A stretch of 64,000 nt of DNA, taken from the NCBI RefSeq assembly GCF_009769735.1, contig NZ_WSRO01000002.1, positions 6,336,001 through 6,400,000 on the forward strand, given 5' to 3'. This document shows, piece after piece, positions 24,106 through 39,503 of this stretch (within the stretch, counting starts at the first letter, position 1; every line of letters starts with the position of its first letter). The notes under the pieces are model-generated. The model searched no databases. It was not told the origin of the DNA and worked only from the letters and a program-made list of their open reading frames with translations. The DNA is from Streptomyces sp. BA2 (lineage in GTDB: Bacteria > Actinomycetota > Actinomycetes > Streptomycetales > Streptomycetaceae). The position numbers were made by a program, and so were the translations under genes.

Positions 24106-24569
24106 TACTGGGAGTAAGCCCAGGCCAGCCTTCTGTCCTGTTGTGCACTTGAACCTCCCGATCTGCTCCTCCCCATGGGTGCACCGTCCGTGGCCGACCG
24201 ATACCGGGCGGTCGTGGTTCGGTTATCGCGCCGTTACTAGCCAGTAACGAACCCCCTTGTGCGGGGGCCGAGAATGCACCACGATCGGCGACGCTCGGTC
24301 CAATAACCCGCAGCCCGAAAGCCAGTCGGGAGCGGGCTTTCTGGGTCCCCACCGAGCAGGCCGGAGACACCCCGTCACCGGTCTTGGACAGGGGGGTCTC
24401 TGCCATCCGGCAGGGCCTGTCCGGCAGGTTGTGCGTGTCGCGTGCGACCAGTGGTTGTCGCTCGGGGGTGATCTCCCGAGGACGTAGCGCTTCTCCCATC
24501 CCTGCCCGGCTGAGCCGCCCGAACGGGGCAGTCAGGGCCGGAGATGTACGTCCGAGAAGGAGGAAAGTC
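24106..24569 (+). promoter_or_regulatory. long upstream region of the DUF6230 gene with palindromes
   Basis: This 460-base stretch has no convincing gene. It holds CGTTACT-AGCC-AGTAACG (24232-24249, perfect 7-bp arms), closely related to the TTACT-GGG-AGTAA repeat at 24105. It is followed at once by a CCCCC/GGGGG hairpin (24252-24267). The last 200 bases are rich in short complementary segments and end in a strong AGAAGGAGG ribosome-binding site. I could not match it to a known riboswitch. The paired TTACT/AGTAA elements are plausible sites for one regulator. Confidence 0.45.
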
Positions 24570-34329: not shown

Positions 34330-35001
34330 CTACGGGGTGCTGGGCGCACCCAGCAACTGCTCCAGCGCGTGCCCGTACTCCCGGAAGAGCACCCGGGCGT
34401 CGGGCCGCGCAGGCGAACTGGGGAGCAGCAGATCGGCGAGGAAGGTGACGCGCCACATCCGGAAGACGGCACTGGCGCCGCGCGCGGAGTCGGGGTCCTC
34501 ATCCATCGCCCCACCGGCCAGTCCGACGGCGATCCGCAAGGCTTCGGCGATCAGTGGAGCCCCTCGCGTGACGCCGGGCCCCCGGGCGATCGCGGCGTTG
34601 ACGAGGGCCTGGAGGAATCGCGTCAGCTGCAGATCCGCGCCCATGCGGCTCATTCGCCGCACCGCGTCGGGCTCTTCGAGCCTGGGAGATACTTCCTCGT
34701 AGACGGAGGACCACATCAGCATGGACGGGGCGCCCACAGGGTGCTCGCGCAGGTAGCCGAGACCGTCGAAGATCTCCATGGTCGCTTCCTCGAAGTCGCC
34801 GACCTCTTGGACCACCGCGAGAAGCCGCACCACGTCGTTCTGCCGCGCTGACCCGAAGGCGCTCACGGACGCGTCCTGCAGCGACCACGCCCCCGTCGCG
34901 GCGACCGCGCCGATCTCCACGATCCCGCCGAGCGGTGCGAAGGCTGCCCGACCAAGGACATCTTCCGGGGTGTTCCATTCCGGCATGCTCAAATAGTCCA
35001 T
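34330..35001 (-). CDS. probable immunity protein for the Rhs toxin
   Basis: Protein of 223 residues with no recognised motif. It is predicted cytoplasmic, without signal or membrane segment, and mostly alpha-helical (for example LLAVVQEVGDFEEATMEIFDGLGYLREHP and LTRFLQALVNAAIARG). It begins 5 bases after the stop of the Rhs/YD-repeat toxin on the same strand. In polymorphic toxin systems the gene immediately downstream of the toxin tail normally encodes its cognate immunity protein. The function is therefore inferred from position only. Base composition is somewhat less GC-rich than its neighbours, as is the toxin tail. Confidence 0.7.
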   Translation of the reverse strand: MDYLSMPEWNTPEDVLGRAAFAPLGGIVEIGAVAATGAWSLQDASVSAFGSARQNDVVRLLAVVQEVGDFEEATMEIFDGLGYLREHPVGAPSMLMWSSVYEEVSPRLEEPDAVRRMSRMGADLQLTRFLQALVNAAIARGPGVTRGAPLIAEALRIAVGLAGGAMDEDPDSARGASAVFRMWRVTFLADLLLPSSPARPDARVLFREYGHALEQLLGAPSTP

Positions 35002-35006
35002 ATCTC

Positions 35007-38000
35007 CTAGAAGTTCCCGGCTACGTTCTGCATGAATGCCTCGTTGAACGGCAGCACTCGTGGTGACCCGGCGTTCAGAATGTCGACGTCATCAGCCGTG
35101 TTCACGAAGTACTCCGGCTGGTTACCGGCAGGCCCTTCGTGCTGGCGCAGCCAACGCTGGGCGTCAGCCCGGGGGACTTCCGTACGCACGATGTGGCCGC
35201 CGGGCCCAGCGTACTGGTTGGCCGCCCGCATGAAATCGTCCGTCAGATAGACACCCGCGTCTGGTGTGTATTGCCGCACGTCCCGGACCGCCGTCGGCAG
35301 CGAGAAGGCATCGCCGTGCCAGTTCTGTGAGCCGTGGTAGAGGGTAACGGTGTCGTAGCCGGAGAGTCCGTAGGGGTCGATCTGCCGGAAGGGGTTGATG
35401 ACGTACCCGTAGGGATCGGGTGCCGGGTCCAGGCCCAGCGGGTCGAGCGTCGTGTAGCGGGCCGACTCTGGGTCGTAGTGACGCTGAAAGTTGTAGTGCA
35501 GCCCCGTTTCCGGGTCGTGGTACTGGCCGGGGAAGCGCAGGGGCGTGTACGCGGCGCTGCGCGTGGGCCAGGTGGTCAGGCCCCAGACGGTGCGCCGGGA
35601 ACGCCAGGCGACGTCACCGTCTTCCCCGATGAGTTCGGTGGGCGTGCCGACGAGGTCCGTGACGATGGCGAAGAACCGGGAATCGATGTTCTCCTGGGTG
35701 GCCTCATCGACGAGGCGCTCCGTCTGCGTGATAGCGCGCAGGCCGTCGTAATCCCAGGTGAGCGTCACGGCATGGGGCAAGTCCGGGGACCTGGTGGTCT
35801 GTTCGGCGAGTAGAGGACCGTCCCAGGTGAAGTCGGTCCGCTCCATTACCGTGGCACCGTCGGCCGCCATGCGCAGCTTGGCGGTCCGCCGTCCCAGCGG
35901 ATCGTACAGATATCGCCAGACGGTCCCGTCCGGCGTAGTCACGCACGTCAGTCGGTCCTCGCCGTCCCAGGCGTACCGCCAGATGTCTGGTTTCCGGGAG
36001 AGCCGCGTCTTCCGCCGTACGACGACACGGCCCGCCGCGTCGTACTCGTAGTGCACGGCCCCCGCGCGAGCCAGCTGGATTCCGTTGAACTCCCGGTCCC
36101 CCCGTGCCTCCTGTCCCGGATGCCGCTCGGGCCACTCGGCGGCCGTCAGTTGCCCGGCCTCGTCGTAGGCGTAGCGTTCAGTCCAGTCGTGCCCGCTGAC
36201 CCCGGTGATCCGTCCTGTCGGGTCGAGCCCCATGGTGATCTCGCCGAGCAGCGGGTCGTCGATTCTGGAGACGAAGCTGTCGGGACGGTAGTCGTAGGCC
36301 CGGCGCTGGACAGCCTCGCCCCCGGCCGTCGTCGTCTGCTCGATCGGGCGCCCTGCCGCGTCCCAGGTCTGCGTGAGCGCGAGGGAGCTGCCCACGAACC
36401 GCTCGATCTCTTGGCCGCCCGCGTCGTAGACGAAGGACAGCGCGTGCCCCGAAGTGTCCAGGTGGATCGCCCGCCCCACCGCGTCGTAGGCGTGGCGGGC
36501 CAGGGCGCCCGTCGGGGTGGTGCGCTGCACGCGTCGGCCCATGGCGTCGTAGGTGCAGGTCAGACTTCGCCCGTCCGTCCGTTCGGTGAGCACCCGGCCG
36601 CGCGGGTCGCGCTCCCAAGTCAGGGTGGCGTCCGGACCAGTGGCGCGCACCAGTCGGCCCGCGCGGTCGTACGTGAACGTCGTCTGCCGCCCGTCGACTT
36701 CCTTGGTGACGGGCCGCCCTACGGCGTCATAGGTGAAGTGGACTGTCTGTCCCTGCGGGTTCGTGCGCTCCAGGAGGCGCCCCACGGCATCGCGCGTATA
36801 GCAGGTGTGCCGACCGTCGAAGTCGGACTCGGCCACCAGGTGTCCTGCGGCGTCGTACGCGTAATTCCAGCTCAGGCCGTGGGGGTTGGTGACGTGTGTG
36901 AGCCTCAGTGAGGCGTCGTGGCCGAACTCGTGGCGGGCGCCGTCCGGGCCCGTGCGCGCGCGGACCAGGTCGAAATGGGTGTACTCGTACATGGTGGAGG
37001 CGCCGGCCGCGTTCGTGTGCTGGACGCAGTTGCCCTCGCCGTCGTACTCCCACGTCTCCTCGGCCCCGTCCGCCCTGAGCAGCCGAGCGATCCTGCCCTC
37101 AACGGTCCACCAAATTCGTGTAGTCGCACCGACCGGGTCGGTGACCTTGATGAGCCGTCCGAACGCGTCGTAGGAGCGAGTAGCCCGCTCGCCGAGCGCA
37201 CTGACGATCTCGACGGGCAGGCCCGCAGCGTTGCACCGCACTCGTGTGGAGGCGCCCAGTGGGTCAGTGACCGTCAGCGGTCGTCCCGCAGCGTCATAGG
37301 TGAACCGGGTCGTCACACCGTCCGGTCCGATGAGCGCGGTGCGGTTGCCTCGCTCGTCGTAGTTGTGTTCCCACACGGCGCCGTCTGTCGTCATCACCCG
37401 TAGGGGCAGGCCGAGTTCGTTGTACTCGGTGCTCGCCTCGGTGCCGTCGGGGCGGCTGACAGTGATGGGCTGGCCGTACGCGTTGTTGGTGAACTCCGTG
37501 GTGTACCCGAACGCGTCGGTCCACGACACGAGGTGGTGATGGACGTCGTATGCGCTCCGCGTAACCGAGCCGTTCGGGTCGATCTCCGCGATGACCTGGC
37601 ACTGCTCGTTGATGACGAAGCGGGACGACACCCCTTCGGCGGTGGTGAGGGTGGTGACTTGGCACTCGGGCCAGGCGGCGTCCGTCCCGTCGTAGTCGAG
37701 GGTGAGGGCGAGATGCCCGGCCTCTCCGCCCTCGGCGATACACCGGTCCTGATCGTCGTAGCTGTAGTTGTAGCGGCTGTGGTTGGAGTCCGTCCAGGAT
37801 GTGACCCTCAGCCGCTCGTCGTAGGCGAACTTCAGGGGGAGCCCGGAGGAGTTGATGGTCTGAGTGAGGTTGCCGTCGGTGTAGCCGTACTCCTTGATCG
37901 TGATGTCCGAGCCGTCCTCGGCACCTCCTGCCAGGCACAGTCTGGTGACTCGGTCCTCCTCAACACTGAACTTGAGGTGGTAGCCGCCAGAGTGGCGGAT

Positions 38001-39503
38001 CGCGAGCGGGGTGCCCTCCGCGTCGTAGTCGAAGTTGATCGTGTTGCCGTTGCGGTCGGATATGCGATCCAACAGCGCCAGGCCCTCGTCGGGGAGGCCG
38101 AAGTAGCGGCTCTGGCCTGTGAGGGGATCGTCGATGCGATAGCTGCCGTTGTCCAGACGGACCAGGGGCCAGTGGGGGCCGACCTCCGGCAGCGTGGCCG
38201 TCCCGGGCCCGTCGGCGTGGGGGTAGGCAAGGAGCAGACCGTCCTCGGTGACGAAGACGACTCCCTCTTCGTCGATTTCAAGGCGCTGGTCGACGGTGGA
38301 GGACCAAGTGGGACCGAACCACCAGCCAGTCCGGTAGTCCGAGGCGACACGACGGCTGAACACCAGTGGCAGTGTGCCGGGCAGGGTGATGTCGCTCTGC
38401 GGCAGGAACATCTGCCCAGTGGCAAGGTCGACAGGGTCGGTCAACTTCTTCCAGACCGCCTTGGCGCTGCGCCCGAACGCGTCCTTGCCCCGGCCGAGCA
38501 TGCTGCGTGCACTCTTCAGACCCTTGAGTCCGCCCTTGAGGCCCTTCATGCCCTTGGCGAGGCCGCGGAGGGAGGTCAGGCCCTTCATACCGGGTATGCA
38601 GTCGAGGGCGGCGAAGGCAACGTCGAGGAGCCCGGCTTCCCCGTTGGCGTATTTGTTGAGGGTGTCGGCGAGGACGACGAGGGCGGCGATGAGGACGATG
38701 GCGCCGAGGATCGGGCCGCCGATGATCATGGCGATGATGCCGAGTACGGCGACGACGACCTTGCAGACGGCGACGATGGTGTCCCAGTTGTCGGTGACCC
38801 AGTCACCGACCTCCTCCCACCACTTGCGGTTCTGGATGCCCGCGTCCGAGGCCTCTTCGAGCTTCTTCTTCGCCGTGCCCGCGGCGTCCTCGCGCATCTT
38901 GCGGGCATCCTCGGCCATCTTCTTCGCGGCATCTAGGTTGGACTTCGCGGAGGAGACATCCGACTTGGCGGCGGTCTGGGCCTTCTCGGCGGAGTTGGCG
39001 TTGCGCGTGGCGGCTTTGACCTTGTCCGGGTCGGGCTTGGGGACGTCCTTGCCGGAGTCTTTGTCGTCCTTGTACTTGTCGGCTTCCTTGCCCGCCTTGT
39101 CCATCCAGGAGTCGGCGGACGTCAACCGCGTCTGGGCGGCGGACAGGTCGCCTTGCGCTTCACGGCCCTTGACCAGGGCCTTGTCGGCGAGGGCCTGGGC
39201 GCGCTCCAGTTCCGGCCAGTACGTGGACAGCGCGTCGCCGGCCATCTCGTAGCTCTTCTTGAGCTTCTTCAGCTTGCCCGGCGCGTCCTCGAACTCCGCC
39301 GTGAACGACTCCGCCGTCTTGCCCGCCCAGGTCAGGATCGCGTCCTCGCCCGCCATCCCCTTGATGTCGCGCAGGACCTTGGAGACGTCATCGGCGAAAT
39401 CGTGCAGATTCTTGGCGAGGTTCCGCACCCGGTCCGGATCTCCCGGCGTCGGGTCCTTGTCCAGGTCCAGGACATGCCAATCCGCCGGCCGATTCCCCGC
39501 CAT
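35007..39503 (-). CDS. Rhs/YD-repeat polymorphic toxin with ADP-ribosyltransferase-like C-terminus
   Basis: Giant protein of 1498 residues. Residues 20-105 resemble a WXG100 helical hairpin (W59-A-G). A charged coiled coil reaches about 220, with a strongly hydrophobic segment at 243-280. A DUF6531-type entry (DPVDLATGQMFLPQSDITLP) starts near 356, then many YD repeats form the shell, closing with the Rhs signature ending DPYGL at 1376-1380. The last 118 residues are the variable tail: TLYHGS, DAGVYLTDDFMRAANQYA and QPEYFVN fit the H-Y-E triad of ADP-ribosyltransferase folds. No signal peptide is present; the WXG100-like start suggests type VII-linked export. An immunity candidate follows. 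Confidence 0.88.
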   Translation of the reverse strand: MAGNRPADWHVLDLDKDPTPGDPDRVRNLAKNLHDFADDVSKVLRDIKGMAGEDAILTWAGKTAESFTAEFEDAPGKLKKLKKSYEMAGDALSTYWPELERAQALADKALVKGREAQGDLSAAQTRLTSADSWMDKAGKEADKYKDDKDSGKDVPKPDPDKVKAATRNANSAEKAQTAAKSDVSSAKSNLDAAKKMAEDARKMREDAAGTAKKKLEEASDAGIQNRKWWEEVGDWVTDNWDTIVAVCKVVVAVLGIIAMIIGGPILGAIVLIAALVVLADTLNKYANGEAGLLDVAFAALDCIPGMKGLTSLRGLAKGMKGLKGGLKGLKSARSMLGRGKDAFGRSAKAVWKKLTDPVDLATGQMFLPQSDITLPGTLPLVFSRRVASDYRTGWWFGPTWSSTVDQRLEIDEEGVVFVTEDGLLLAYPHADGPGTATLPEVGPHWPLVRLDNGSYRIDDPLTGQSRYFGLPDEGLALLDRISDRNGNTINFDYDAEGTPLAIRHSGGYHLKFSVEEDRVTRLCLAGGAEDGSDITIKEYGYTDGNLTQTINSSGLPLKFAYDERLRVTSWTDSNHSRYNYSYDDQDRCIAEGGEAGHLALTLDYDGTDAAWPECQVTTLTTAEGVSSRFVINEQCQVIAEIDPNGSVTRSAYDVHHHLVSWTDAFGYTTEFTNNAYGQPITVSRPDGTEASTEYNELGLPLRVMTTDGAVWEHNYDERGNRTALIGPDGVTTRFTYDAAGRPLTVTDPLGASTRVRCNAAGLPVEIVSALGERATRSYDAFGRLIKVTDPVGATTRIWWTVEGRIARLLRADGAEETWEYDGEGNCVQHTNAAGASTMYEYTHFDLVRARTGPDGARHEFGHDASLRLTHVTNPHGLSWNYAYDAAGHLVAESDFDGRHTCYTRDAVGRLLERTNPQGQTVHFTYDAVGRPVTKEVDGRQTTFTYDRAGRLVRATGPDATLTWERDPRGRVLTERTDGRSLTCTYDAMGRRVQRTTPTGALARHAYDAVGRAIHLDTSGHALSFVYDAGGQEIERFVGSSLALTQTWDAAGRPIEQTTTAGGEAVQRRAYDYRPDSFVSRIDDPLLGEITMGLDPTGRITGVSGHDWTERYAYDEAGQLTAAEWPERHPGQEARGDREFNGIQLARAGAVHYEYDAAGRVVVRRKTRLSRKPDIWRYAWDGEDRLTCVTTPDGTVWRYLYDPLGRRTAKLRMAADGATVMERTDFTWDGPLLAEQTTRSPDLPHAVTLTWDYDGLRAITQTERLVDEATQENIDSRFFAIVTDLVGTPTELIGEDGDVAWRSRRTVWGLTTWPTRSAAYTPLRFPGQYHDPETGLHYNFQRHYDPESARYTTLDPLGLDPAPDPYGYVINPFRQIDPYGLSGYDTVTLYHGSQNWHGDAFSLPTAVRDVRQYTPDAGVYLTDDFMRAANQYAGPGGHIVRTEVPRADAQRWLRQHEGPAGNQPEYFVNTADDVDILNAGSPRVLPFNEAFMQNVAGNF

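Follow-up and report, generated by a model that had tools for sequence, protein, structure and literature searches.

A type VII-type Rhs protein with a predicted H-Y-E ADP-ribosyltransferase tail and its putative immunity protein in Streptomyces sp. BA2

Introduction

In Streptomyces sp. BA2, a 64,000-nucleotide stretch of contig NZ_WSRO01000002.1 (positions 6,336,001 to 6,400,000, called the window here) encodes an Rhs protein of 1498 residues (P0001), followed by a protein of 223 residues (P0002). This locus raises the question whether the C-terminal tail of P0001 is a toxin and whether P0002 is the protein that neutralizes it. We consider it likely that the two form a Streptomyces polymorphic toxin-immunity pair, in which an Rhs protein of the type VII secretion system (T7SS) type carries an H-Y-E ADP-ribosyltransferase (ART) tail and the adjacent gene encodes its inhibitor. 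The features discussed below lie at the following window positions:

35007..39503, reverse strand: Rhs polymorphic toxin P0001, 1498 amino acids (aa); intact open reading frame (ORF) with Pfam/NCBIfam domains
34330..35001, reverse strand: putative immunity protein P0002, 223 aa; intact ORF that adjoins ART tails across genomes, with an AF2 model and no named family
38814..39503, reverse strand: T7SS-type trafficking region, residues 1-230 of P0001; PF21725, near-identical in three sister Rhs proteins
38652..38789, reverse strand: hydrophobic segment, residues ~239-284 (Kyte-Doolittle)
38415..38435, reverse strand: PVDLATG, residues 357-363; similar to a signature for N-terminal cleavage known from other Rhs shells
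35364..35444, reverse strand: DPLGL-X17-DPYGL, residues 1354-1380; C-terminal autoproteolysis motif predicted by pattern match
35010..35363, reverse strand: tail, residues 1381-1498; putative divergent H-Y-E ART domain (AF2, profiles, conservation)

The toxin stop codon (ending at 35007) and the ATG of P0002 (35001) are separated by 5 bases (35002-35006), and the coordinates, protein lengths and gene layout are those given in a preliminary description of the locus. The start of P0002 is ambiguous within 34986-35001: the distance from AGGAG to the ATG is only 2 bases, and another ATG in the same frame, five codons (15 bases) beyond the first, makes the start slightly uncertain.

Linkage of tail and neighbor across genomes

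When GTDB representative genomes were scanned for peptides of the tail, 14 loci were confirmed on 13 records; one is labeled Amycolatopsis and lies on a short low-coverage contig. A P0002 homolog lies directly 3' of the ART tail in all 14 loci, and the start of the immunity match ranges from 110 bases ahead of the Rhs stop codon to 9 bases past it, as some BLAST matches overrun. The tail search of 295 genomes of the genus gave six matches, of which four are genuine, and all four have an adjacent P0002 homolog; three of the GTDB loci (L068, L070, L079) are probably from the same genomes as the genus hits G283, G178 and G120. The remaining two, weak matches in G247 and G056 (E 4-6e-4), were dropped; on neither strand does a frame open across the match contain LYHG or YHG[STA]. 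Within the BA2 genome itself, a single Rhs core out of five has the ART tail, and the sole P0002 relative found adjoins it. Because a homolog adjoins the tail in 14/14 loci, it is very probable that P0002 confers immunity to the ART tail as its cognate partner, and the pairing proposed in the preliminary description is borne out by these loci as well as by the BA2 genome.

Tail and immunity distances across 15 loci are correlated (Pearson 0.90; partial correlation 0.65 given the core), with a Mantel p of 2e-4, which is the smallest value possible with 5000 shuffles. However, the tail-core and immunity-core correlations are nearly as high (0.83 and 0.84), and the Spearman values are 0.50, 0.58 and 0.55. 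Hence, the distance correlation adds little beyond common descent.

The tail resembles H-Y-E ADP-ribosyltransferases

The tail contains LYHGS, AGVYLTDD...NQYA and PEYFVN in the order in which they had been proposed to supply a catalytic triad. In the numbering of the tail protein P0003, which begins at residue 1380, the triad corresponds to H11, Y40 and E85. All three are invariant in a 17-row tail alignment (A2), which has no invariant Lys. A wider alignment holds 54 distinct sequences of 56 collected, some of them near-identical or short fragments; here the His is found in 47/49 rows that reach the column, the Tyr in 50/54 (the exceptions being three His and one Val) and the Glu in all 53 rows having a residue there. 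Since the triad is invariant or near-invariant across the alignments, the motifs are more than a chance resemblance. Moreover, H, Y and E are conserved in the tails of both Rhs and HINT carriers.

An AF2 model of the tail (pLDDT 85.5) has ART-type folds as its top structural neighbors, all with modest scores, and RES-type folds, which degrade NAD, are also among the neighbors. The Pfam family ART-PolyVal (PF18760) matches 14/14 tails of alignment A1 at E up to 1, yet all matches stay below the cut-off: the gathering score is 31.2 bits, while the tail reaches 13.5 bits and P0138, the best of ten further relatives, 26.2 bits. P0138 also carries ART-PolyVal as a precomputed label. The family is named for polyvalent proteins, which are proteins of phages and conjugative elements and not Rhs tails. 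Furthermore, the tail matches a DUF3990-type Rhs tail in a profile comparison (E 1.7e-4, probability 49%), and the PARP model PF00644 gave no row at E up to 1 for the tail or the A1 tails. The predicted ART fold together with the ordered triad indicates that the tail is a divergent H-Y-E ART domain, so the description of the tail as ART-like held up in the structure prediction, the profile matches and the conservation of H, Y and E.

A putative immunity family without a name

The AF2 model of P0002 is all-alpha (pLDDT 91.4). P0002 had been described as matching no recognized family, and searches of Pfam and NCBIfam at E up to 1 and of PADLOC and PHROGs at E up to 0.1 likewise returned none. 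Among 45 P0002 relatives, no Pfam family has matches in two or more members, and ADP-ribosylglycohydrolase (PF03747) gave no row at E up to 10. The P0002 model has no confident neighbor in the PDB, and the immunity profile retrieved nothing from PDB chains except one sub-significant enzyme. The family listing comprises 113 proteins; one of them, P0023, shares 99% identity and probably represents the cluster of the window's own protein. In an alignment of 45 sequences (A3), ten columns are invariant, R181, W183 and R184 among them, and the R-x-W-R motif (R181-W183-R184 in P0002) is present in 109/114 family sequences. Judged from these searches, the immunity family is one without a Pfam name and the more novel half of the pair.

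The Rhs protein and its sisters

The N-terminus of P0001 matches T7SS_signal (PF21725, residues 21-220, 40.6 bits against a cut-off of 27). WXG100 stays below its cut-off (23.2 vs 27.3 bits), which makes "WXG100-like" a fair wording for the start. A hydrophobic segment had also been noted and coincides with the stretch at ~239-284, where Kyte-Doolittle 19-residue means exceed 1.8 for windows 239 to 266 with a maximum of 3.00 at 243. P0001 also has DUF6531 and a YD-repeat shell, with 17 RHS repeats and an Rhs_assc_core that extends to residue 1380 (TIGR03696, 66.5 vs 32.5 bits); DPYGL closes the shell as described. Both the core and the cleavage motif end at residue 1380, and the tail therefore comprises residues 1381-1498. 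An N-terminal cleavage signature and a C-terminal autoproteolysis motif of Rhs shells are described in PMC13285283. PVDLATG and DPLGL-X17-DPYGL resemble these signatures, and the latter is a predicted autoproteolysis motif; the pattern PVxxx[TS]G occurs in 18/20 and the DPLGL-X17-DPYGL pattern in 19/20 ART-tailed Rhs proteins.

The BA2 assembly encodes four full-length Rhs cores besides P0001, five in all. Three of these sister proteins are 95-96% identical to P0001 over residues 1-230, while their cores are 48-57% identical and their tails unrelated. Tails are thus exchanged behind a conserved N-terminus, as in Rhs polymorphic toxins. One sister (L102, 1955-7524) has a deaminase-looking tail by eye (HSKCGE, PPCDSC), followed by a SUKH-3 immunity gene. 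The genome also encodes EccC (TIGR03924, 866 vs 509 bits), at a locus that includes two WXG100 genes, a subtilase gene and the gene of a further Rhs protein with T7SS_signal. The tail of this last Rhs protein (L099, 5467-10206) has Cys, His and Asp residues that are reminiscent, by eye, of a papain-like or transglutaminase-like domain. With a T7SS signal domain in P0001 and a T7SS in the genome, P0001 may be a T7SS substrate; in Listeria, an Rhs toxin has been linked to the T7SS (PMC10327511). Elsewhere in the window, a che1 RNA (Rfam RF02935) lies at 24385-24477 on the forward strand (90.9 bits, gathering score 54.1).

Immunity relatives away from the ART tail

P0002 relatives occur in 28 genomes of the 295-genome genus sample, and 24 of the 28 lack the tail (E up to 1e-3). 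Loci of 5-11 kb each were examined in the other 27 genomes that have an immunity match. The ART tail lies directly upstream of the match in three; an Rhs end with a different tail lies 533-3119 bp upstream of the match start in eight; a T7SS-Rhs N-terminus follows within 1.3 kb in four; and none of those Rhs signatures was found within the 5-11 kb taken in 12, with L063 being a weak partial match only. In L058, the P0002-relative match starts 541 bp downstream of an Rhs gene with a DUF3990 tail (over the cut-off), and in L046 it starts 1227 bp downstream of one with a Tox-ART-HYD1 tail (just below the cut-off). A broader protection by these relatives is possible.

In five of the 27 loci (L044, L045, L048, L050, L053), an immunity relative and tufA share one 10 kb stretch, and in L045, L048 and L053 a T7SS-Rhs N-terminus follows the immunity relative. 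In genome G626 (L103, 6267-7506), a whole-length immunity ORF adjoins a decayed piece of Rhs sequence in which fragments of the tail are left, and in G081 (L062, 2121-2675) a fragmented P0002 relative lies in a stretch with no Rhs gene. These two loci fit a retention of immunity genes after toxin loss. By eye, the G081 stretch resembles the site in the window, with the C-terminus of a kinase-type protein, a helix-turn-helix-like protein and a phosphofructokinase.

Comparison with known systems

The top of the tail's structure list is TreTu of TreTu-TriTu, a Salmonella Rhs1 C-terminal ART toxin with its immunity protein (PDB 7zhm/7zhl); the identity is 12-13%, and other ARTs rank level with it. 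TreTu belongs to a type VI secretion system (T6SS) setting, whereas delivery here looks T7SS-type. P0002 has no match to the TriTu Pfam model (PF24689, 91 positions). A link to TriTu was rejected: one of the 45 relatives matches PF24689 (E 0.0092), which is unremarkable in 45 scans, and a laxer repeat returned the same single member; in addition, PF24689 occurs at 11 places in 291 genus genomes, and none of these coincides with a P0002 relative. A sub-cut-off PF24689 match (25 vs 27 bits) lies away from the window in the BA2 genome (L108, C2:461932-462123).

RhsF-RhsFi of Chromobacterium violaceum and RhsP2-RhsI2 of Pseudomonas aeruginosa are also Rhs ART tails whose partner covers the active site (PMC13324451, PMC11833690). 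They are described as having R-Y-E triads and T6SS delivery, whereas the tail here is of the H-Y-E type. Further classes of ART tails predicted in polymorphic toxins are Tox-ART-PARP, Tox-ART-HYE1 and Tox-ART-HYD1 (Zhang et al., 2012; PMC3482391). Tox-ART-PARP is listed there with HG[ST], Y, K and E in actinobacteria and with PVC export; this Lys has no invariant counterpart in alignment A2. Tox-ART-HYD1 is listed with the alpha+beta Imm-My6CBD, in contrast to the all-alpha model of P0002. In Tne5 (Rhs-Pg) of Pluralibacter gergoviae, an ART-like Rhs tail is also neutralized by a downstream gene, but Tne5 is described as an NAD(P) glycohydrolase, and in place of an H-Y-E triad it has a Lys/Glu pocket (PMC13285283).

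Proposed mechanism and alternatives

Judging by Pfam matches and genome content, the N-terminal module would direct P0001 to the type VII (ESX) secretion system. The YD-repeat shell would hold the tail, which might be released by a cut at DPLGL-X17-DPYGL. As a diphtheria-toxin/PARP-type ADP-ribosyltransferase of the H-Y-E group, the tail would then use His and Tyr to hold NAD+ and Glu to drive the transfer. Its target might be a molecule essential to bacteria; a translation protein or RNA is the likeliest candidate, as for other Rhs ARTs. In the producer, the all-alpha P0002 would bind the tail and cover the NAD pocket. The crystal structure of RhsF with RhsFi shows an immunity helix that places an Arg-Trp pair in the ART pocket, where the Arg reaches the catalytic Glu (PMC13324451). 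By analogy, the conserved R-x-W-R helix of P0002 is a candidate plug, and the likeness suggests that it might act in the same way.

Within the same toxin-immunity layout, the tail could instead be an NAD(P) glycohydrolase with an ART fold, which would kill through NAD drain and not through target modification. The fold alone cannot separate a transferase from a glycohydrolase, RES-type folds are among the structural neighbors, and Rhs-Pg/Tne5, with an ART-like model, is reported to deplete NAD(P) with no detectable protein labeling (PMC13285283). However, the acidic residue of Tne5 is described as nearly dispensable, whereas here the Glu is found in 53/53 rows and His and Tyr are near-invariant, as in H-Y-E transferases, and we regard a glycohydrolase as unlikely. 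An ART-like tail that is inactive or non-enzymatic is highly improbable: no Pfam ART model exceeds its cut-off and the structural scores are all modest, but H, Y and E are conserved across Rhs and HINT carriers and the neighboring gene is maintained.

P0002 might also be a broader protective or accessory factor that either gives general immunity against ARTs or assists Rhs proteins in folding or release. This would agree with the 24/28 genus genomes that have a relative and lack the tail, and with copies downstream of Rhs proteins with other tails, including DUF3990 and the sub-cut-off HYD1-type ART. Beside other tails, however, the match starts at least 533 bp from the Rhs stop codon in 8/8 loci, whereas it abuts the ART tail in 14/14, and strings of non-identical immunity genes have been described at firmicute T7SS loci (PMC9484751). 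A broader factor is thus quite unlikely in our estimate, and a toxin tail with its dedicated inhibitor is preferred. A farther-reaching proposal would be a new ART-toxin branch with a new all-alpha immunity superfamily, which inserts its R-x-W-R helix into the NAD pocket and whose stand-alone copies have been dispersed among the Rhs islands of Streptomyces and may give protection from more than one type of ART tail (this one, DUF3990, HYD1); we put it forward as speculation that is unlikely to hold in full.

Significance

Polymorphic toxin systems of this kind are well known (PMC3482391). While the design is known, the tail-immunity pair looks new: searches of open-license papers, by title and abstract start, returned none on the ART tail or the P0002 family. 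The preliminary suggestion that tail and immunity family may be new is consistent with the absence of a Pfam ART model over the cut-off for the tail and of a Pfam family for P0002. RhsP2, RhsF and Tne5, which are Rhs ART tails with experiments, are described as T6SS effectors, and the Streptomyces T7SS-type pair would provide a compact, testable case from a Gram-positive soil bacterium. Since the unnamed immunity family has more than 100 sequences and occurs mostly without the toxin tail in the genus sample, a role of orphan immunity genes in Streptomyces would be directly testable.
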